From an uncultured Rhodospirillales bacterium (GTDB lineage: Bacteria > Pseudomonadota > Alphaproteobacteria > RF32 > CAG-239): DNA of 64,000 nucleotides. The position numbers and the translations under genes were made by a program. Shown in pieces: positions 4,357 to 63,667 of this stretch (position 1 is its first letter; each line of letters begins with the position of its first letter). The DNA lies in the NCBI GenBank assembly GCA_902761715.1, contig CACWLK010000012.1, positions 1-64,000 on the forward strand, given 5' to 3'. Below the pieces are notes generated by a model, which did no database searches, had not been told where the DNA came from, and saw only the letters and a list, made by a program, of their open reading frames with translations.

Positions 4357-5582
4357 TTGAGCTTAAAACCATTACCAAAATCGCTATTCGGGCAATACGC
4401 GCCAACAAAATGCGTTCATCATTGACAAGTCTCGGCATTATTATCGGTGTTGCTGCCGTAATTGTTATGTTGGCAATTGGGCATGGAGCGCAGATTTCAA
4501 TTCAGGAAGACATGAAAACCATGGGCTCAAACCTGATGATTGTGCGCTCGGGGACATCGACATCAGGCGGTGCCCGAGGCGGGCGTGGTTCTTTGCCGAC
4601 AATGAAAGCTGCCGACGGTGATGCAATTCAGGAAAAAATTGCTAAGGTAAAACTGGCTGCACCGGTTTTGGAACAGACAAACCAAATTGTGTACGGAAAT
4701 GCAAACTGGTCAACATCCACTACAGGAACCGATAATCGCTATTTTGAAATTAAGGATTGGGCTCTCGATTATGGGCGCAATTTTTCGGAAAGTGATATCA
4801 AAAATGCGGCAAAAGTTACTGTTTTGGGGCGTACTGTGGTTACCGAATTGTTCGGCGATGTTGATCCTTTGGGAAAAACAGTGCGAATTAAAGGAATGCC
4901 GTTTACGGTAATCGGTGTTTTGCAAAAGCGAGGAGAAAACGGCATGGGAATGGATCAAGACGATGCCGTGTTTATTCCGATTACCACCGCACAAAAGAAA
5001 GTTATCGGTATTACATTCCCCGATCAGGTCAGTATGATTATGCTTCAGGCTGTAGACGGAGAAGCGACCTATTCTTCTCAAGACGATATTTCTCAATTGT
5101 TGCGGCAAAGACACAATTTGGGCGCAAATAAAGAAAATGATTTTGTAATTATGAATTTGACGCAAATGCAGGAAATGATGGAGAGCTCAACCAAAATTCT
5201 GACAGTTCTGCTCGGTTCAATTGCTTCTATTTCTCTTTTGGTCGGCGGTATCGGTATTATGAACATTATGCTGGTGTCGGTTACCGAAAGAACACGTGAA
5301 ATCGGGATAAGAATGGCAATAGGCGCAAAAGCCTGGGATATCAGGTGGCAATTTTTGATGGAAGCTATTGTGCTGTCACTTATCGGTGGACTGGTAGGAA
5401 TTGTTACCGGACTGGTCGGGGTTGAGGTCATGAAGTTGTTTACGTCATTTACGCTCAAGATTGCCTGGGCTTATGTGATTATACCATTTGTTTTCTCGGG
5501 CTTGGTGGGAATTTTGTTCGGGTTTTATCCGGCTTATAAAGCATCGTTATTAAACCCGATAAATGCCTTGCGTTACGAATAA
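4353..5582 (+). CDS. MacB-like ABC exporter permease (MacB periplasmic core + FtsX domain)
   Basis: A 409-aa inner-membrane protein. It has an N-terminal transmembrane helix (about 20-45, SLGIIIGVAAVIVMLAIG), then a large periplasmic domain with the MacB-type MGSNLMIVRSG pattern. Three C-terminal helices follow from about 280, with the diagnostic IGIMNIMLVSVTERTREIGIRMAIGA segment shortened here to its key motif TERTREIGIR. It overlaps the ATPase gene by 4 bases and completes a MacA-ATPase-permease operon. The stop lies 1 base from the stop of the convergent mlaC-like gene. Confidence 0.9.
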   Translation: MIELKTITKIAIRAIRANKMRSSLTSLGIIIGVAAVIVMLAIGHGAQISIQEDMKTMGSNLMIVRSGTSTSGGARGGRGSLPTMKAADGDAIQEKIAKVKLAAPVLEQTNQIVYGNANWSTSTTGTDNRYFEIKDWALDYGRNFSESDIKNAAKVTVLGRTVVTELFGDVDPLGKTVRIKGMPFTVIGVLQKRGENGMGMDQDDAVFIPITTAQKKVIGITFPDQVSMIMLQAVDGEATYSSQDDISQLLRQRHNLGANKENDFVIMNLTQMQEMMESSTKILTVLLGSIASISLLVGGIGIMNIMLVSVTERTREIGIRMAIGAKAWDIRWQFLMEAIVLSLIGGLVGIVTGLVGVEVMKLFTSFTLKIAWAYVIIPFVFSGLVGILFGFYPAYKASLLNPINALRYE

Positions 5583-5583
5583 A

Positions 5584-6231
5584 TTATTCCTGTTCAGGAA
5601 GTGCGTAATGCTGTTCGGCAGAGGTGGTAGTCAGCTCAAAATCTTCCAGAAACCATTCCATATCTTCGTCGCTGTCTTTAATCATCTGATAAAAGCGACC
5701 ACGATATGACAGTATCAATGAACTTTCGGCAACTTTGATATCTGTCAGCATGATATGCTCGCCAGCTTTGTGCATCCTAAATTCGACAAGATATGTATCA
5801 ATCTGCCCTTCCTGATTTTTGTAATTTATGTTGGCAGTAACAACAACAGCATCACCATCGCGGTGGCTGCCGGAAATTGCAAATGAAATTCGATTATCAA
5901 ATTGAAGCGGAAAACCTTTATACAGGCTCATTGCATAGCGTTTGAACAAAGATTGATATTTTGTTTGCTGATCTTTGGTCATCTCACGCCAATATTTTCC
6001 GACCACAAATTTGGAGATATAATTAAGGTCAATATAGTTTATGAAAAGATTATCAAGTTTTTGGTATTTGGTTGCCAAATCTTTTTCAGAAAAGGCTTTA
6101 AGCAGTTCATCTCCACGAGTTTGAGCAAAAGCCTCAGCCTCGGCAGTGGTAAGCTCAGCTGCCTTAATTTGAGGAGAAAACAACAGTAGTCCACAAAATA
6201 GAATAAAATATAAAAAACAGTTACTTTTCAT
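5584..6231 (-). CDS. MlaC/Ttg2D-family periplasmic phospholipid-binding protein
   Basis: A 215-aa protein with a signal peptide (residues 1-24, hydrophobic core YFILFCGLLLF, cleavage near KAA-EL). The body carries the family hallmarks: YISKFVVGKYWREM, the basic FKRYAMSLYKGF segment, and the C-terminal LSYRGRFYQMIKDSD pattern. MlaC proteins shuttle phospholipid between the outer-membrane MlaA complex and the inner-membrane MlaFEDB importer. The other mla genes are not adjacent, so the partner is inferred. It has an acidic tail of about 30 residues after the usual end. Confidence 0.85.
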   Translation of the reverse strand: MKSNCFLYFILFCGLLLFSPQIKAAELTTAEAEAFAQTRGDELLKAFSEKDLATKYQKLDNLFINYIDLNYISKFVVGKYWREMTKDQQTKYQSLFKRYAMSLYKGFPLQFDNRISFAISGSHRDGDAVVVTANINYKNQEGQIDTYLVEFRMHKAGEHIMLTDIKVAESSLILSYRGRFYQMIKDSDEDMEWFLEDFELTTTSAEQHYALPEQE

Positions 6232-28853: not shown

Positions 28854-30560
28854 ATGGAAGAGCAAAAACAAATACGATGCGCAATTTATACCCGCAAATC
28901 AACTGATGAAGGTCTTGAAAAAGAATTCAACACACTTGAAGCCCAACGTGAGGCCGGGGAAAACTTCGTAATGAGTATGAAGCATCAAGGTTGGGTGATT
29001 CTGCCCGATCATTATGATGATGGAGGCTTTAGCGGTGGTAACCTTAAAAGACCTGCATTAAAAAGATTGATGGCTGACGTTGAGAAAGGCAAAGTGGACA
29101 TGATCGTTGTCTATAAGATAGACCGTTTAACACGTTCACTTCTTGATTTTGCACAGTTAGTACAGACCTTTGAAAAGAATAATTGCTCTTTTGTATCTGT
29201 CACACAGCATTTTAATACTTGCGATTCCATGGGCAAGCTAACATTAAACATCCTGTTGTCATTTGCACAATTTGAGCGTGAACTTGGAGCTGAGCGCGTA
29301 CGTGATAAAATTGCGGCTAGTAAGAAAAAAGGAATGTGGACCGGTGGTCCGGCTCCATTAGGATATGATATAAAAGAAAAGAAGCTTATTATAAATCAGG
29401 AAGAAGCAGAAGTCGTAAAATTTATATTTGACGATTACTTGAAGACAAAATCACAACTTCAAACGATGAAAAATGTAAATGAAAAAGGATACAAACCAAA
29501 GACACGAGTTACAAAAACAGGAAGAGTTGCATCAAAAGGTCGTTTCAACCATTCAATGATAAGTAATATATTAAGCAACCCTATTTACATTGGTATGGTA
29601 GCATATAAAGACACTCTTTACGAAGGACAACACAAAGGAATCATTGACAAGGCTGTTTGGGATAATGTAGCAGACCTAAAAAAAAGTAATATTGGCTCAG
29701 GATTTTCTTCACAAAAATCTGAAAAAGTAGCACTTCTTAAAGGGCTTTTAGAGTGTGAATGTTGTGGCACAATGACACCAACCAGGAGTAAAAAAGGTAA
29801 CAAATACTATGAGTATTACACTTCGAGTAAAGCCGTAAAAGAAGGAGTAAAAACAGTTCACTGCCAAATTGGTAGCATACCAGCCGGGGAAATAGAATCA
29901 TTTGTTCTTGATAAGGTCAAAAAGATATTTCAATCACCGGATCTGCAACAGGCGATGCTTAAAGAATTTGAACGACAAAATGCAAATTACAATGGTGCCG
30001 ATGTTAATGCCATAATTAAAGATATAGGAGAAGCTTTTAAATATTTTGAACCAGCAACTATTCACGATTTCATAAAGGAAGTCGTACGAAAAGTTATTGT
30101 CTGCCATGACCATATCGAAATAAAATTAAAACCTCTCAGCGCGGCATTGTTTGAAGATGGAACTCTTGAGACTGATGAAAATTTTGATGCGAAACAGCTT
30201 GAACTTAAATACCCAATTAGATTTGGGCGCAAGCGTGGTCGGGTTTTAATCATCGAACCAACCCCGCGAAGCTCTGACCAAGGTGAGCGTGATAGTAAAC
30301 TGTATACTGCTGTCACACAGGCCTTTTACTGGAAACAACAAATGGAAGAAAGACACATAACTCTAACCGAATTAGCCAAGCAAGAACACACAGACCGAGG
30401 ATACATGGGGCAAATTCTTAAACTCACAACACTAGCTCCAGACATTGTTATGGCTATTATAGAGGGGCGACAGCCTAAGCTCCTGACAACCCGTGGTTTA
30501 ATTAGAGGACACTTCCCTTACATATGGGAGGATCAGCGGAGAGAGCTCGGTTTTAAATAA
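28854..30560 (+). CDS. Large serine recombinase (prophage integrase)
   Basis: A 568-aa site-specific recombinase. The resolvase domain has catalytic S16 (YTRKSTDEG) and the conserved KIDRLTRSLLDFAQL and FAQFERELGAERVRDKI segments. The recombinase domain follows (WTGGPAPLGYDI...; SMISNILSNPIYIG). A zinc-ribbon-like ECECCG near 300 and a coiled region complete the family plan. The C-terminus from about 465 holds an extra segment with an HTH-like stretch (ITLTELAKQEHTDRGYM). It probably integrated this prophage. attB is unknown. Confidence 0.93.
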   Translation: MEEQKQIRCAIYTRKSTDEGLEKEFNTLEAQREAGENFVMSMKHQGWVILPDHYDDGGFSGGNLKRPALKRLMADVEKGKVDMIVVYKIDRLTRSLLDFAQLVQTFEKNNCSFVSVTQHFNTCDSMGKLTLNILLSFAQFERELGAERVRDKIAASKKKGMWTGGPAPLGYDIKEKKLIINQEEAEVVKFIFDDYLKTKSQLQTMKNVNEKGYKPKTRVTKTGRVASKGRFNHSMISNILSNPIYIGMVAYKDTLYEGQHKGIIDKAVWDNVADLKKSNIGSGFSSQKSEKVALLKGLLECECCGTMTPTRSKKGNKYYEYYTSSKAVKEGVKTVHCQIGSIPAGEIESFVLDKVKKIFQSPDLQQAMLKEFERQNANYNGADVNAIIKDIGEAFKYFEPATIHDFIKEVVRKVIVCHDHIEIKLKPLSAALFEDGTLETDENFDAKQLELKYPIRFGRKRGRVLIIEPTPRSSDQGERDSKLYTAVTQAFYWKQQMEERHITLTELAKQEHTDRGYMGQILKLTTLAPDIVMAIIEGRQPKLLTTRGLIRGHFPYIWEDQRRELGFK

Positions 30561-51620: not shown

Positions 51621-52430
51621 ATGGCAAATATGGAAGAAAGATTACAAGCTGTTGTTTCGCAGGCTGAAACAGACGGCGCAAAATGGCATACAATAATTCA
51701 TGGTAATAATACAACAACTGTCCCTACAGAAAACGGCAATGTTCCAACTGTGGCCAAACAAATGAAAGATGTGCATGATGAGGTTGTTAATGGCGTTATT
51801 GATTATATGACCGAGTGTCAGACGGCGCGTGATGTTGCCATTCAAACAAAAAATGAAACAATCGCTGTTAAAAACGAAACTAACACAATTAAAGGTGATG
51901 TCACTACGCTGAGGAATGAGACCGAAAGTCTTAAAAATCAGTCGCAAACGGTATTTAATAATATCGCAACAGCAACAAACTCGGCTGTTCAGACCGTTCA
52001 GATTGAGGGAGCGACCCAGGTTACGAATGTCCAAAGTGCGGTGGCAGAACAAGTGGCCGAAGCAACCAGTCAGGCAAATCGTGCTGAACAAGCAACTTCG
52101 ACAAAGGTAAATACTGATTTATCAAACATTACTAAGGACACTATTTTTACTAAGATGTTTACGAAATATGTAAGCGGCAAAACATGGTACAGAGTTTGGC
52201 CGGACGGTTGGATTGAGCAAGGTGGCGAAGTTAGTGCATCGGGTCAAATTACCGTTACATTTCCAAAGGCGTTCTCAAATACAAATTACACAGTTGTAGC
52301 CACAAGTATTGGAACAAACGGTGAAATTTACGCGCAATGCATACAGCGTACTTCGGCATCACAAATGACCATTTATAATCGCGGTGGCAGTGCAAGTCTT
52401 GCAAAGTCCTGGTATGCGTGCGGTTACTAG
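51621..52430 (+). CDS. Tail fibre-like protein 1 (paralogue 1 of 3)
   Basis: 269 aa. The N-terminal about 150 residues start MEERLQAVVSQAETDGAKWH, then form a long helical coiled coil (TKNETIAVKNETNTIKGD, ATSQANRAEQATSTK). The C-terminal 90 residues read like the gp53-type receptor-binding domain (WPDGWIEQGGEVSASGQITV; YNRGGSASLAKSWYACGY). The fibre probably binds the host surface. The next two genes repeat its N-terminal part. Confidence 0.8.
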   Translation: MANMEERLQAVVSQAETDGAKWHTIIHGNNTTTVPTENGNVPTVAKQMKDVHDEVVNGVIDYMTECQTARDVAIQTKNETIAVKNETNTIKGDVTTLRNETESLKNQSQTVFNNIATATNSAVQTVQIEGATQVTNVQSAVAEQVAEATSQANRAEQATSTKVNTDLSNITKDTIFTKMFTKYVSGKTWYRVWPDGWIEQGGEVSASGQITVTFPKAFSNTNYTVVATSIGTNGEIYAQCIQRTSASQMTIYNRGGSASLAKSWYACGY

Positions 52431-52442
52431 GAGATACTTCAA

Positions 52443-53249
52443 ATGAACATGGAAGAAAGATTGCAGGCTGTTGTTTCTCAGGCTGAAATGGACGGCGTTA
52501 AATGGCATACAATAATTCATGGTAATAATACAACAACTGTACCGACCGAAAACGGGAATGTTCCTACGGTAGCCAAGCAATTGAAAGATGTGCACGATGA
52601 AGTTGTAAATGGTGTTGTAGATTATTTGGCCGAGTGCAGAAACGCTCGTGATGTTACAATCCAAACAAAGGCCGATACACTTGCTATTAAAGAGCAAACA
52701 AATGGATTAAAATCTGATGTTATAGGGTTAAAGAATGATACAGAGGCCTTAAAAAATCAGTCTCAAACCATTTTTAACAGCATTTCGACCGCTACAACAA
52801 ACTCTATTAGCACTATTCGAGCGGAAGGTACAACCCAAGTGACCAATGTGCAAAATGCTGTAGCTGAACAAGTAGCTGAGGCTACAAGTCAAGCAAACCG
52901 AGCTGAAGCCGCAACAAGTTCGAAAGCAAACTTGGATTTTTCAAATATTGCACCTACTGCGGCGGCCAAAACAGGAATTATCGGTTGGATTGCCCCGGAT
53001 TGGTCCCGGCGACAAGTCCTTTCTCTTAATACAGATGTGACTATTACGAAGTATGGGTGGGTTATTATGCGAAATGTTGTCTATAACAGTTCACTTTTGG
53101 GTTACATAAACGGCTATGAAGTATTCCACCAATACGGAAACTACGGACACTGGGAAGAATATAACAGTTTTTCATTCCTGGTCAGTCCGGGCGATGTTGT
53201 AAAACTAACAGGCGGAGAATTAACCTTTATGCCTTGCAAAGGAGTATAA
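52443..53249 (+). CDS. Tail fibre-like protein 2 (paralogue 2 of 3)
   Basis: 268 aa. The first ~155 residues are close to paralogue 1 (MEERLQAVVSQAEMDGVKWH; HNNTTTVPTENGNVPTVAK-like). At the DNA level the first 120 bases of both genes are almost identical. The C-terminal 105 residues (IIGWIAPDWSRRQVLSLN; FHQYGNYGHWEEYNSFSF) differ from paralogues 1 and 3, so the tip is exchanged. It follows paralogue 1 after 12 bases. Confidence 0.8.
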   Translation: MNMEERLQAVVSQAEMDGVKWHTIIHGNNTTTVPTENGNVPTVAKQLKDVHDEVVNGVVDYLAECRNARDVTIQTKADTLAIKEQTNGLKSDVIGLKNDTEALKNQSQTIFNSISTATTNSISTIRAEGTTQVTNVQNAVAEQVAEATSQANRAEAATSSKANLDFSNIAPTAAAKTGIIGWIAPDWSRRQVLSLNTDVTITKYGWVIMRNVVYNSSLLGYINGYEVFHQYGNYGHWEEYNSFSFLVSPGDVVKLTGGELTFMPCKGV

Positions 53250-53250
53250 T

Positions 53251-54669
53251 ATGCCAAATTTAGAAGAAAGATTGCAGGCTGTTGTTTCTCAATCGGAAAC
53301 CGACAGTTCAAAGTGGCACACAATAGTTCATGGGGATGATACAACAACTGTACCGACCGAAAATGGAAATGTGCCGTCTGTCGCAAAACAGCTAAAGGAC
53401 GTGCGGGCCGAAATAATAAACGGTCTAGAGGATTATGTCGGTGACTGTCGCCAGGCAAAGGCTGACACATTGCAAATAAAATCCGAAACACAAATTATTA
53501 AAAATGAAACCAATACTTTAAAAGGGCAAACAAAAACTCTTAGAGATGAAGCGGAAACATTTAAGGATCTGTCGCAAACAACATACAACAGTATTGCTAG
53601 TGCAACGGCCGCCTCAATATCACAGGTTCAGTCGGAAGGAGCTGTTCAGGTTGCACTTGCCACAGCCCAAGCAGAAAGAGCTTTAGCCTATGCACAAAAT
53701 GCGGCTCCGACACCGCTCGGCACAAAGCTGACAGTCCCAGCAAGTTCAAAAGTTCCAGACGGATATGAGCCGGTTTGGTATAAAAACACGATAACAAGAG
53801 CTCGTTACCCGGACTTTTTTACTCAACTGGTAGATACAAATAGCCTAGTTTTGGTTGATGAGGAAACCTATGATAGCCAAGTAGCAACATATGGGATGTG
53901 CGCCAGTTATGTAAAAGTCGATAATAATACACTTATTTTGCCATTGTTGGTAAACTTTGCACGTGGCGGCACCCTGAATCAATTAGGAAATGTCGAGTTA
54001 GACCAGTTCCAAGGTCACTGGCATGAAATGGTCTATCGTCAAGATGCAACATCGTCCGGATATAGATCTGACATTTTTGGGACGGATGGTTTTACAGCGA
54101 GTGGCTATTCCAATACCGGTGGTACCGATGAATGGATGCAACGTCTTGGTAATCGTACAAGTGATGCCCTTTGTGCAATCACTCCAATAACAGATTATTC
54201 AAACGGTACACCGCGAACTGGTTCAGAAACACGCCCCAAAGCATATTATGAGCTGACATACATTAAATGCGCTGATGTTACGCGTACGCTTACTGTTGAA
54301 GAAACATCAGAACTTAGAAATTTAGTTATTCTTTTGCAACAAAAACTCGAAGAAGCTGAGAATAGAATAGTTTGCTCAAAAACTCCTACGACATGGGTTG
54401 AAAAAGATACTAAGACAGGCCTGATAAAACAGGGTGGAAAAGTTACGATTGCAACAAGCGGAACAGTTACATTCCCTGAGCCTTTTCCAAATACTGCCAT
54501 CAGTGTTATCGTAACCCCGAGTGAAGTACCGACAAATTCGACGAGTGACAACAATTATGTGGCCTGCGCAGTAAGTGTCACTAAATCTACTTTTATAATA
54601 AAATATTACGATTCTGATAACACCAGCGGGCGAACTGGCGTTATTTCATGGTCAGCAGTTGGATATTGA
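53251..54669 (+). CDS. Tail fibre-like protein 3 (paralogue 3 of 3), long form
   Basis: 472 aa. The N-terminus (EERLQAVVSQSETDSSKWHT; KQLKDVRAEIINGLEDY) is the shared module. A tail-collar-like middle domain at about 155-330 follows (PDGYEPVWYKNTITRARYPD; LELPLLVNFARGG-like LILPLLVNFARGG). Then comes a short coiled coil and a gp53-type tip (LIKQGGKVTIATSGTVTFPE; SGRTGVISWSAVGY), related to paralogue 1's tip. It is the longest of the three and probably the main receptor-binding fibre. Confidence 0.82.
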   Translation: MPNLEERLQAVVSQSETDSSKWHTIVHGDDTTTVPTENGNVPSVAKQLKDVRAEIINGLEDYVGDCRQAKADTLQIKSETQIIKNETNTLKGQTKTLRDEAETFKDLSQTTYNSIASATAASISQVQSEGAVQVALATAQAERALAYAQNAAPTPLGTKLTVPASSKVPDGYEPVWYKNTITRARYPDFFTQLVDTNSLVLVDEETYDSQVATYGMCASYVKVDNNTLILPLLVNFARGGTLNQLGNVELDQFQGHWHEMVYRQDATSSGYRSDIFGTDGFTASGYSNTGGTDEWMQRLGNRTSDALCAITPITDYSNGTPRTGSETRPKAYYELTYIKCADVTRTLTVEETSELRNLVILLQQKLEEAENRIVCSKTPTTWVEKDTKTGLIKQGGKVTIATSGTVTFPEPFPNTAISVIVTPSEVPTNSTSDNNYVACAVSVTKSTFIIKYYDSDNTSGRTGVISWSAVGY

Positions 54670-59108: not shown

Positions 59109-59381
59109 ATGAATAAAACTGAATTTGTTGAAGCAGTTGCTAAAGAAGCCAAAGCTTCTAAAGCCGCCGCAAATGAATTGGTAAACGCTGTTGTAGCAGT
59201 TGTAACAAAAGCCTTGAAAAAAGGTGAATCAGTTCAAATCACTGGTTTCGGTACATTTGAAGTAGCAAAGCGCGCCGCTCGTAAAGGTCGCAATCCTGCT
59301 ACCGGTAAAGAAATCAAAATCCCAGCATCAAAAGCTCCTAAGTTCAAAGCCGGTGCAGTTTTGAAAAAAGCTGTAAAGTAA
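59109..59381 (+). CDS. HU-family nucleoid protein
   Basis: 90 aa. It begins MNKTEFVEAVAKEAKASKAA, has GFGTFEVAKRAARKG and the DNA-grasping arm RNPATGKEI, and ends in Lys-rich FKAGAVLKKAVK. HU bends DNA and helps recombination, replication and packaging. Its own promoter and a double terminator isolate it. It may be phage-borne (last prophage gene) or the host hup gene at the right junction. It lies next to two serine recombinases, which in other systems use HU or similar proteins (Hin-type inversion needs Fis and HU). Confidence 0.93.
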   Translation: MNKTEFVEAVAKEAKASKAAANELVNAVVAVVTKALKKGESVQITGFGTFEVAKRAARKGRNPATGKEIKIPASKAPKFKAGAVLKKAVK

Positions 59382-59401: not shown

Positions 59402-59437
59402 GCCCTATAGGTTCACGCTTATAGGGCATTTTTTTTA
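59402..59437 (+). terminator. Intrinsic terminator after HU
   Basis: GCCCTATA pairs with TATAGGGC around GGTTCACGCT, followed by a run of eight T. Confidence 0.93.
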
Positions 59438-59438
59438 T

Positions 59439-59471
59439 AACTCCCTGTGGTAAAACTACAGGGAGTTTTTA
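59439..59471. terminator. Second intrinsic terminator before the invertase gene
   Basis: AACTCCCTGT pairs with ACAGGGAGTT (10 bp perfect) around GGTAAAACT, with a T run. It insulates the invertase from HU; the invertase leader starts immediately after. Confidence 0.9.
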
Positions 59472-59486
59472 TTGAAAGGTATTAAA

Positions 59487-60107
59487 ATGATATATGGATA
59501 TATACGTGTCAGCACAGACAAACAAACCGTTGAAAATCAACGATTTGAAATAGAAAACTTCGTCCATAAAGAAAATATTAAAATTGACAGATGGATAGAA
59601 GAAACGGTATCTGGAACAGTTTCTGTTGAAAAACGGAAATTAGGTACCCTCCTACGAAAATTAAAGAAAGGTGATATTTTAGTCGCATCAGAAATATCCA
59701 GGCTTGGTAGGAATTTACTCCAGATAATGAGTATTTTACATCATTGTATGAAGAATGAAGTTCAGGTTTGGACAATTAAAGATAATTATCGCCTCGGGAC
59801 AGATATACAAAGTAAGGTTTTGGCATTTGCATTTGGATTATCAGCAGAAATTGAAAGAAACCTAATAAGTCAGCGAACCAAGGAGGCATTGGCCAGAATA
59901 AAGGCGGATGGAAAACATCTTGGACGTCCTCATGGTTTTAAGACAATGAAGCGAAAACTAGATGGTAAAAATAAGCAACTTGTAGGGTTATTAGAGAAAA
60001 ATGTACCTAAAACTCAAATAGCCAAAATGCTTGGAATTGAAAGAAGCCTTATTTATACATTCTTAAAAGTGCATAACCTGCGCGAATATATTAATAAAAA
60101 GCAGTAA
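59487..60107 (+). CDS. Small serine DNA invertase/resolvase
   Basis: 206 aa. ATG 59487 follows GAAAGG; an upstream TTG at 59472 is also possible. The catalytic Ser is S9 in GYIRVSTDKQ. Conserved resolvase/invertase segments are ASEISRLGRNLLQIMSIL, the long helix FAFGLSAEIERNLISQRTKE and GKHLGRPHG. A C-terminal helix-turn-helix follows (KTQIAKMLGIERSLIYTF). It resembles the Hin/Gin/Mpi invertases rather than large integrases. Directly downstream is a perfect inverted repeat, its likely recombination site. It may invert the DNA between 60128 and 60267. Confidence 0.92.
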   Translation: MIYGYIRVSTDKQTVENQRFEIENFVHKENIKIDRWIEETVSGTVSVEKRKLGTLLRKLKKGDILVASEISRLGRNLLQIMSILHHCMKNEVQVWTIKDNYRLGTDIQSKVLAFAFGLSAEIERNLISQRTKEALARIKADGKHLGRPHGFKTMKRKLDGKNKQLVGLLEKNVPKTQIAKMLGIERSLIYTFLKVHNLREYINKKQ

Positions 60108-60127
60108 AATACTGCGTGGTTTCTAGA

Positions 60128-60144
60128 CGGTGGTTTTTACGACA
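60128..60144 (+). repeat. Left inverted repeat (IRL), 17 bp
   Basis: CGGTGGTTTTTACGACA, exact reverse complement of 60251-60267. It starts 20 bases after the invertase stop. Confidence 0.95.
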
Positions 60145-60250
60145 GCTGTAGGGAAAACCTTTGTTTTTAATGGATTATTCCTTGAAAAATATATGCTTAG
60201 AAGCAAATTTTTTATATTTTTTCCCATGCAAAATTTTTAGGCTTTCAGAA
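60145..60250. promoter_or_regulatory. 106-bp AT-rich segment inside the inverted repeats (candidate invertible switch)
   Basis: The segment contains no ORF. GGGAAAA near its left end is mirrored by TTTTCCC near 60218-60224. -10-like TATATG (60190-60195) and TATATT (60213-60218) occur, but I find no -35/-10 pair with good spacing on either strand. Inversion would change which end faces the glycosyltransferase operon. Its function could be a promoter, an upstream-activating sequence or a terminator, and it is unproven. Confidence 0.6.
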
Positions 60251-60267
60251 TGTCGTAAAAACCACCG
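60251..60267 (-). repeat. Right inverted repeat (IRR), 17 bp
   Basis: TGTCGTAAAAACCACCG, exact reverse complement of 60128-60144. It ends 29 bases before a promoter-like sequence at 60296. Confidence 0.95.
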
Positions 60268-60295
60268 ATTTTTCTACAGAAAACTAAAAAATTTG

Positions 60296-60324
60296 TTGAT
60301 TTATTTTTTTGAATAGTGTATGTT
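60296..60324 (+). promoter_or_regulatory. Promoter-like sequence for the polysaccharide operon
   Basis: TTGATT (60296-60301), 17 bases, TATGTT (60319-60324), 82 bases before the glycosyltransferase ATG and just outside the right inverted repeat. If it is the operon promoter, the switch must act on it from upstream. Confidence 0.55.
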
Positions 60325-60406
60325 GTTTCTAGTTCACCGTTTTCGTAACAGTTAAAGGTGGAAAAGTTTTGTTTGTAATAAATAGAAAGGATTAAATAGA
60401 CTTGCT

Positions 60407-61408
60407 ATGTCGAAACCTAAAATATCCGTTGTGATGCCTGTCTATAACACAAAGGAAGAATTCTTTCGTGAGGCTATTTCTAGTATTCTTTCACAATCTT
60501 ATAAGGATTTCGAGCTTCTTATAGTCGATGACTTTTCTGATACATATATAAAAGATATTGTTAACTCGTATAAAGATAAAAGAATAAAATATTTTAGGCT
60601 TAATAAAAATTCTGGCGCAGCCATAGCAAGGAACTACGCTATTGAAAGAGCTGTAGGTGATTATATAGCTTTTTTAGACTCTGACGATTTTTCAAAAAAA
60701 GATAGATTTGAAAAACAGATAGCTTTTTTCATTAGCAATCCTGAAATCGGATGTCTTGGTACAGCTGTCGATGCTATAGGTGATGATGCAAAGGATGTAA
60801 ATTTTATTCCATATAAAACTCATTTTGAGATTGAATCAAATTTAATATTCAATGGTTGTGTCTTTTGTCAATCAAGTGTGATGATTAGAAAATCAGTTAT
60901 CGAAAAAAACAACATTCGTTATAAAAACGAGTATGTTCCCGCAGAGGATTACGGGTTTTGGTTGGATATGGTTGGTCATACAAAATTTGCAATTTTACCC
61001 GAAAAATTAACAACGTATCGTTATCATTTAGCTAATATTTCTCATACTCAACGTGATATTCAACGTGAGAAAGGAGGTTTGGCGCAAATATGCGCATTTC
61101 AGAAGTACTGCAATATCAAATTTGAAAATATCAATTTATGGTCAAAGTTTTTTATGGGGACCCCTTTTAGTCGAGACGAGCTAAAAGAGTTGGAAGACAG
61201 AATTGGACCAATTTTAGATTCGCTTATATCCAAGGGATATCCCAAAAAGGATTTAATGTATTTTTTTAAGAAAAAATTCAAAAAACACTTCCATAGAACG
61301 CGCACAATTCCAGGACAATGGAGACTAATGAACTCTAAATTGAGTAAATTTTTTAGGCTCAAACTGAGATGGAGAATTTTTTATTTTGTAACAAGAGGCA
61401 TTTTATGA
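60407..61408 (+). CDS. Family 2 glycosyltransferase
   Basis: 333 aa. [20 protein letters not shown] and the nucleotide-binding DDFSD, then [11 protein letters not shown] with the metal-binding D91-D94 motif, and [10 protein letters not shown] near 183 form a GT-A inverting transferase of the GT2 family. The C-terminal 80 residues are Lys-rich, helical and unlike the core. It probably adds a sugar to a surface polysaccharide. It is the first gene of the operon after the switch region. The stop overlaps the next ATG (ATGA). Confidence 0.9.
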
Positions 61409-62367
61409 AAACTATATTAGTAACCGGAGGAACAGGTTTTTTAGGTTCCAATTTGTGTATAAGGCTAATAAACGAAGGTAATAATGTAATCTGCGTTGAT
61501 AATAATTATACCGGACGTTTGAGTAATATCCAAAAAATAATGAAACACCCAAATTTTCGCTTTATTAAGCATGACATTTGTGAGCCTTTGGTGGTTGATG
61601 CCAAACTTGACCAGATTTATAATATGGCTTGTCCGGCATCTCCTCCGGCTTATCAGGGAAGTTACTCTATAAAGACAACCAAGACTTGCGTCTTAGGGGC
61701 AATTAATATGCTTGATTTAGCAAAACTGCATCATGCAACCATTCTACAAACATCAACTTCTGAAATATACGGTGAGCCCTTGGTGCATCCTCAAGTTGAA
61801 AGTTATCGCGGAAATGTCAATCCAATTGGCATCAGAGCTTGCTATGATGAGGGCAAGCGTTGTGCAGAGAGTTTGTTCTTTGATTATCACCGTCATGAGG
61901 GTGTTGATATTAAAGTGGTTCGTATTTTTAATACCTATGGTCCGAATATGGACCCGAATGATGGTCGCGTGGTTTCAAACTTTATCTGCCAAGCTTTGTC
62001 AGGGCAAGACATTACCATTTACGGCGATGGACATCAAACACGGTCGTTTTGTTTTGTTGATGACTTGATAGAAGTTTTAATTCGTATGATGAACTCCGAA
62101 AAAGGCTTTACCGGACCAATTAATATCGGTAACCCAGGGGAATTTACCATTAAAGAACTGGCAGAAATGGTGGTTGCAAAAGTCGGTGGTAGTTCAAAAG
62201 TGGTTTATGAAGATTTGCCGTCTGATGATCCGACACAGAGAAGACCGGACATCACATTGGCCAAAACAAAACTCGGTTGGGAACCAAAAGTCAAACTTAG
62301 CGAGGGTTTGGATAAAACAATCGCATATTTCAAAACACAAATAAATCAGTTTAAAAAGGTTGCATAA
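61405..62367 (+). CDS. UDP-glucuronate decarboxylase (UDP-xylose synthase)
   Basis: A 320-aa SDR enzyme. The NAD-binding GGTGFLG is at 8-14, the class signature is [14 protein letters not shown] near 75, and the catalytic Tyr-Lys lies in [31 protein letters not shown] follows, typical of UXS. It turns UDP-glucuronate into UDP-xylose, a donor for surface glycans. The next gene makes its substrate. ATGA overlap with the glycosyltransferase indicates one operon. Confidence 0.94.
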
Positions 62368-62368
62368 G

Positions 62369-63667
62369 ATGAAAGTAGGAATTATTGGTACAGGATATGT
62401 CGGATTACCAACAGGTGTCGGTTTGGCTGAACTTGGAAATGAAGTTGTTTGTATTGACAGAGAACCAAAGAAAATTGATGCCTTAAAAGCCGGCAAAATT
62501 ACACTTTATGAAGATGGCTTGGAAGAACTATTTCATAAGAATGTTAAAGCCGGACGGATTAAGTTTACGACCTCAATGAAAGAAGGTATTGAAAATGCAG
62601 ATTTAGTCATTATTGCTGTCGGAACACCGCCACATCCGGTCACGAAAGAGGCGGATATGAAATATATTCACGCCGCCGCAACAGAATTGGCAGAATATTT
62701 GCAGGGTTATACGGTTATTGCAACAAAGTCAACAGTTCCTGTTGGAACGGGTGACGATATTGAAGCGTTAATCTCTAAGAAAAACCCATTTGCGGATTTT
62801 GATGTTGTTTCTTTGCCGGAATTTTTGCGCGAAGGTTTTGCTGTTCATGACTTTTTCCATCCGGACCGCATTGTTGTTGGAGCTAACACCGAAAAAGCCC
62901 GCAATGTGATTAAAGAATTATACAAGCCTTTTGAGGGTAAAACTCAAATGTTGTTTGTGAAACGTCGTTCAAGTGAAACAATTAAATATGCATCCAATGC
63001 CTTTTTAGCTATCAAAATTCATTATATTAATGAAATGGCAAACTTTTGCGAGAAAACAGGTGCGGATATTACTGAAGTTGCTAAAGGTATGGGCTTAGAC
63101 AGCCGTATCGGTAACAGATTCTTAAATCCGGGTCCTGGGTACGGTGGAAGTTGCTTCCCGAAAGATACGATGGCAATGTCATACATGGCTCGCCAGAATG
63201 ATGTTGACATGACATTGATTAACGCCGCTATTGCCGGGAATACCAAGCGCAAACAACAAATGGCAGAGCGGATTTTAGAAGCCGTTAAAGGGATTGAGAA
63301 TCCGAAAATTGCGGTTTTGGGCTTGGCATTCAAAGACGGCACCGATGATTGCCGTGAAAGTCCGGCAATGGAAATTGTGTATAATTTGCTAGAGCATAAA
63401 GCAAATATTACGGCTTATGACCCGAAGGCGATGGGAACGGCTTGTCAGTTGGTTGGCGATAAAATCAGCTATGCCGATGATATGTATTCTTGTGTTAAAG
63501 ATGCTGATGTTTTGGCAATTTTGACGGAATGGAATGAATTTAAGTCCTTAGACCTAAACCTTGCATCAACTTTAATGCGGCATAAAAATATTGTTGACTG
63601 CCGAAATTTGATTAACGCAGATGAGGCTAAAAAAAGTGGATTTGTGTACAAAGGAATAGGCAAATGA
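62369..63667 (+). CDS. UDP-glucose 6-dehydrogenase
   Basis: 432 aa. The start ATG 62369 is preceded by an in-frame ATG 9 bases upstream. GIIGTGYVGLPTGVGLAELG starts the NAD domain, with PEFLREGFAVHDFFHPDRIV in the middle. The catalytic Cys is near 258 in GPGYGGSCFPKDT, and FKDGTDDCRESPAMEI marks the C-terminal domain. It oxidises UDP-glucose to UDP-glucuronate, the substrate of the preceding enzyme. One base separates them. Its stop overlaps the next ATG. Confidence 0.95.
   Translation: MKVGIIGTGYVGLPTGVGLAELGNEVVCIDREPKKIDALKAGKITLYEDGLEELFHKNVKAGRIKFTTSMKEGIENADLVIIAVGTPPHPVTKEADMKYIHAAATELAEYLQGYTVIATKSTVPVGTGDDIEALISKKNPFADFDVVSLPEFLREGFAVHDFFHPDRIVVGANTEKARNVIKELYKPFEGKTQMLFVKRRSSETIKYASNAFLAIKIHYINEMANFCEKTGADITEVAKGMGLDSRIGNRFLNPGPGYGGSCFPKDTMAMSYMARQNDVDMTLINAAIAGNTKRKQQMAERILEAVKGIENPKIAVLGLAFKDGTDDCRESPAMEIVYNLLEHKANITAYDPKAMGTACQLVGDKISYADDMYSCVKDADVLAILTEWNEFKSLDLNLASTLMRHKNIVDCRNLINADEAKKSGFVYKGIGK

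Follow-up and report, generated by a model that had tools for sequence, protein, structure and literature searches.

Capsule promoters that invert are characteristic of the Bacteroidetes. The Mpi invertase of Bacteroides fragilis and its capsule promoters were described by Coyne 2003, a study that we use in the form summarised in PMC5903667, PMC4747536 and PMC8375218. The invertible segments of Bacteroides intestinalis measure 183-186 bp (PMC8375218), and a genome survey of inversions recorded none in the four Alphaproteobacteria genomes it covered (0/4; PMC5903667). Here we analyse a stretch of 64,000 nucleotides from an alphaproteobacterium (the window), in which an invertase gene, a set of inverted repeats and a polysaccharide operon lie side by side. 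This locus has in common with B. fragilis Mpi both the protein family and a polysaccharide operon preceded by a promoter that is predicted to be invertible, and its segment of about 205 bp is similar in size to the 183-186 bp segments of B. intestinalis (PMC8375218). We consider it very likely, from the comparisons set out below, that the locus is a local phase-variation switch served by one invertase, in which inversion between two sites, here called L and R, would move a promoter and so turn the operon ON or OFF.

Results

The gene at 59487-60107 on the plus strand encodes a small serine recombinase of 206 amino acids (PF00239, E 3.6e-34). Over residues 1-200 it scores 317.7 bits, above the cut-off of 272, with the NCBIfam model for the "master DNA invertase Mpi family" (NF009949). 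This places the enzyme in the family of the capsule invertase of B. fragilis, in agreement with an earlier sequence-only reading of this DNA, which had proposed a serine invertase of Hin/Mpi type here. The catalytic residues Arg7, Ser9, Arg72 and Arg75 are intact and are invariant across 107 sequences. Of 59 genomes from the bacterial family of the host, 45 carry a gene for such an invertase (E <= 1e-30), and at the same threshold none was found among the examined genomes outside the family. In a phylogenetic tree the alphaproteobacterial invertases form one branch (SH-aLRT 92) of 51 rows, one of which is a bin with the label Melainabacteria. This branch is separate from the Spirochaetota and most of the Bacteroidota.

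The gene immediately before that of the invertase encodes an HU-type DNA-binding protein (59109-59381, plus strand; PF00216, E 1.5e-32), with two terminator-like hairpins between the two genes. In four loci an HU-type gene precedes the invertase by 108-130 bp, the relatives concerned being L036, L009 and L044, and the window genome has a second HU copy elsewhere (84% identical). HU stimulates Hin, and the protein encoded at 59109-59381 is a possible inversion cofactor.

On the other side of the invertase, the gene content fits a surface polysaccharide, and the product of the operon would presumably be a surface glycan. The first gene of this probably switched operon encodes a family 2 glycosyltransferase (60407-61408, plus strand; PF00535, E 3.3e-35). 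It is followed on the same strand by an NAD-dependent epimerase/dehydratase of the UXS/dTDP-glucose dehydratase type (61369-62367; PF16363, E 2.6e-48) and a nucleotide-sugar dehydrogenase of the UDP-glucose 6-dehydrogenase type (62360-63667; TIGR03026, 460.7 bits against a cut-off of 189.8), beyond which reading of the ORFs gives a 1014-aa GT8/GT2-like protein and then an ABC exporter. The glycan had been described beforehand as being of UDP-xylose type; the operon genes are indeed of polysaccharide type, but the specific attribution depends on the UXS-like gene (61369-62367), for whose protein no NCBIfam model among those shown, UXS models included, scored above its cut-off.

In the interval that separates the invertase from the operon, the left arm CGGTGGTTTTTACGACA (60128-60144) of a perfect 17-bp inverted repeat is paired with its exact reverse complement (60251-60267), 106 bp away, as had been reported before. 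The accompanying remark that the repeat occurs nowhere else in the window was upheld by an exact-match search, which finds only these two copies. No further exact 17-bp copy is present in the genome (1,427,246 bases, 26 contigs), where the next best match has two mismatches, and the inverted-repeat score of 17 compares with a maximum of 12 among shuffles. The 17-bp pair is nevertheless an incomplete set of sites, because a degenerate third site, overlooked in the earlier reading, lies at 60323-60350. Read as 28-bp dyads, the three sites are L (60117-60144, plus strand), which contains the left 17-bp arm and has a central GT at 60130-60131; M (60251-60278, minus strand), which contains the right arm and has its centre AC at 60264-60265; and R (60323-60350, minus strand), with its centre AC at 60336-60337. 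L therefore has one orientation, and M and R the opposite one.

M is the sole good genome match of the dyad consensus. The sites are confined to this locus, starting 9 bp past the stop codon of the invertase, and a genome-wide search found no second target of the enzyme. A site search in viral contigs returned five matches, all of them in unrelated sequence without homology to the locus; the locus DNA had no match in phage records, and an Rfam scan of the region gave nothing above gathering thresholds.

Comparison with a close relative, L049 (MAG contig CALXWA010000004.1), provides the central evidence for inversion, as the flanks of the two loci are collinear and the intervening DNA is inverted. 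Window positions 59417-60132 and 60335-63610 align to the plus strand of L049 (82% and 94%), and between them 60250-60340 aligns to the minus strand of L049 at 6731-6641 (93%, E 2e-33), giving an inverted stretch of about 205 bp from crossover to crossover (60132-60335). Collinearity of the left flank stops, and the inverted block starts, at L, and collinearity of the right flank is regained from 60335 at R. The crossovers fall at the centre of the left site (60130-60131) and that of the third site (60336-60337), with breakpoints at CGGTG/CACCG, the window site having a CGGTG core with AAAA/TTTT arms. When the window is inverted in silico between the centres of L and R, its alignment to L049 improves from a score of 51 to one of 184, and both L049 junctions are obtained nearly base for base. 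Moreover, L and R in the window are each a hybrid of a GTTTCTAG-type half and a TGTnnnnAAAAC-type half, and after the in-silico inversion each turns symmetric, which is the L049 state. This half-site make-up fits a past exchange between L and R.

These results bear directly on the earlier version of the switch, in which L and M were the working pair and flipping of the 106-bp middle segment alone (60145-60250) switched the operon. L and M are the best-matching sites and their 17-bp arms are perfect in the window and also in L049, both arms having changed together (ACGACA against AGGACA), but the inversion between the genomes ends at R and not at M. The best promoter candidate, described below, lies outside the 106-bp segment, and flipping that segment alone would therefore leave the promoter in place. 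Furthermore, the middle segment, which is strongly diverged between the two genomes, aligns to its L049 counterpart only as the reverse complement (2 of 5,000 shuffles aligned equally well), an orientation that agrees with a flip of the whole L-R interval and not with a separate flip between L and M. An L/M switch is in our judgement very unlikely. What stands of the earlier proposal of phase variation is that related genomes carry both orientations, L049 having the one opposite to the window; what falls is the extent of the flipped segment, which runs from L to R.

The two orientations come from different assemblies, and the comparison is therefore one between genomes and not within one population. 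A search of the switch region against 57 related genomes found only its own locus and weak AT-rich matches, leaving L049 as the only close homologue of the segment found, and a genus-wide DNA search matched nothing beyond the glycosyltransferase part, which was found in G006 and G011. The L049 assembly could itself be questioned, because it is a single genome and has a deletion or assembly join just upstream: at L049 5930-5936 a tail-fibre gene breaks off after about 23 codons and runs straight into the terminator that lies behind HU, and the remaining tail genes and HU are absent. However, an inversion with junctions exactly at the site centres is atypical of assembly error unless both orientations coexist.

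The best-scoring promoter candidate in the segment is TTGATT-17-TATGTT (60296-60324, plus strand), which lies between M and R, ends at R, and faces the operon in the window state and the opposite way in L049. It is the top candidate in both loci, at the same place within the segment, and this part of the segment is about 93% identical between them. We infer rather than assert its activity, because its score is not above those of shuffled controls; its position, its conservation and a comparison with L044, where TTGAAA-17-TATAGT occupies the same place relative to the last site and scores above the 95% shuffle level, suggest that it may be active.

Under the L × R model, the Mpi-family invertase (59487-60107) would recombine L (60117-60144) with R (60323-60350), which are opposed and whose orientation would be set by their non-palindromic GT/AC centres. 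This would flip the approximately 205 bp between them, including an outward-facing promoter beside R. In the window state the promoter would transcribe the polysaccharide operon from 60407 (ON), and in the flipped state, as in L049, it would point back at the invertase and leave the operon without a promoter (OFF). The orientation of the segment thus probably switches the operon on and off, and it seems likely that the adjacent invertase performs the inversion and that flipping continues within populations. A relic, with enzyme or sites defunct and the two orientations fixed as lineage differences, would accord with the single genome seen for each orientation, but it is improbable given an intact reading frame, an invariant catalytic set and a promoter part still about 93% identical. 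In addition, the invertase is 95% identical to that of L049 in protein against about 82% in DNA, which suggests purifying selection on it.

The role of the middle segment is a separate matter; possibly it forms an insulating hairpin or terminator, and its L049 counterpart contains a terminator-like hairpin on the minus strand. In an extension compatible with the L × R model, recombination of L with M (or of M with R when OFF) would flip this hairpin separately, producing four states, with the hairpin insulating the operon from read-through. M forms a complete dyad site and shares the GT centre, L044 apparently also has three sites, and the stem formed by L and M is kept through a paired change (ACGACA/TGTCGT in the window, AGGACA/TGTCCT in L049). 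The sequence after the stem reads ATTTTTC in the window; in L049 it reads TTTTCG. Nevertheless, the paired change may equally be gene conversion between sites, a loop of 106 nt is long for an intrinsic terminator, and the genomes compared include no product of L × M or M × R recombination, so that we regard this extension, four states and insulation together, as conceivable but doubtful.

A prophage with terminase, portal, capsid and tail genes, assigned mostly by reading, occupies 28854-58900 and ends just before the HU gene. It carries a large serine integrase-type gene (28854-30560) and, at 51621-54669, three tandem tail-fibre-type genes with a near-identical N-terminus (EERLQAVVSQ.E.D..KWH) that diverge afterwards. 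The invertase could in principle belong to this prophage and act on phage genes, in the way that Gin acts on tail fibres, given tail-fibre-type genes in a prophage ending near 58.9 kb and the known Mpi-like invertase of Bacteroides phage B124-14, to which the window enzyme is about 62% identical. Such a role is extremely unlikely, as the sites lie on the operon side only and relatives (L015, L016, L011 and L036) retain the invertase beside polysaccharide-type genes. A tail-fibre switch was dropped because the tail genes are without any site.

Inversion beside Mpi-family invertases is also seen at other loci. In L015 and L016, which come from the same family and represent two species within a single genus, a 182-bp block is inverted (90%) between collinear flanks, with crossovers at AATAACG-GA-CGT beside the invertase and a GT2 gene downstream. 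Two Bacteroidales MAGs, L067 and L082, differ by an inverted block of 254 bp (96%, positions 5570-5825) upstream of an Mpi-family invertase, with a core, AAACGGTC, close to the CGGTG of the window. L011, L044, L046 and L073 also have significant inverted repeats shortly after the invertase. Most of the Mpi-family relatives examined have none in the 400 bp that follow the invertase, which counts against the switch model. The cores of L011 and L044, AACGAACGTTAGA and TAACGAACG, resemble the ARACGTTCGTN of B. fragilis Mpi (PMC8375218). Genes for glycosyltransferases, a sugar aminotransferase type or a nucleotidyltransferase lie downstream in L011, L014, L015, L019, L036 and L046 (the last assigned by reading only), a selected list, many other family members having unrelated neighbours.

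In relatives the first gene past the invertase and repeats is often a resolvase-like paralogue without the catalytic arginines (L009, 2379-2978; L044, 6857-7441; L011, 709-1284, minus strand; L046, 2670-3254; L073, 6937-7701; L014, 2378-2935). Arg7 is changed to D, Q or N in these proteins, Arg72 and Arg75 are replaced, and Ser9 is retained in some only. About ten such paralogues lie within 500 bp of a putatively active Mpi-family invertase in the family, and none was found in the window genome. They may be dead-enzyme regulators of the switches. Elsewhere (L021, L022, L024, L030, L039, L040 and L048) the Mpi-family invertase has immediately behind it a second small resolvase gene in convergent orientation, and this pair recurs in several genomes, near-identical in some, as if mobile.

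Discussion

A gut alphaproteobacterial family with reduced genomes has its own Mpi branch, several members of which lie beside polysaccharide genes. We tentatively propose, as a reading that the present loci permit but do not yet favour, that this branch has diversified within the family into private site specificities (CG-GT-G here, ACGTTCGT-like or CG-GA-CG elsewhere) serving many glycan switches, each confined to its own locus; three sites would give some of these switches more than two states, and others would have a catalytically dead invertase paralogue as regulator. If these switches are active, unrelated gut bacteria would vary their surface glycans through the same enzyme family under the same phage and immune pressures. 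The natural pairs, L049 with the window and L015 with L016, are ready targets for PCR.

The Mpi regulon of Bacteroides fragilis and the window locus differ in host, the latter being alphaproteobacterial, and in scope, since B. fragilis Mpi inverts 13 scattered regions whereas the window genome has its site at one locus only. They also differ in site, the B. fragilis core being ARACGTTCGTN (PMC8375218) and that of the window CG-GT-G; L011 and L044, unlike the window, do bear ACGTTCGT-like cores. The single-locus site and the different core do not fit a regulon of the B. fragilis type, in which a master invertase acts on many loci.

With the extracellular-polysaccharide promoter IVp-I of B. fragilis (tsr19/BF2766; PMC4747536) the window shares a local invertase and several repeats at a single polysaccharide promoter, although the tsr19/BF2766 invertase is a tyrosine recombinase and the window enzyme a serine recombinase. 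Repeats between promoter and genes reduce expression at IVp-I (PMC4747536), whereas in the window no repeat pair lies between the candidate ON promoter and the operon. The likeness to Hin and Gin consists in a small serine recombinase with one segment beside its own gene and, in the window, an HU neighbour. However, the sequence similarity to Hin/Gin is only distant (E 5e-14 to PDB 4m6f) and, unlike in Hin/Gin, the window invertase gene lies outside the segment. The parts of this predicted switch are known; what appears to be new, as far as our searches of the open-licence literature reach, is the host group, together with the private site and its restriction to a single locus.
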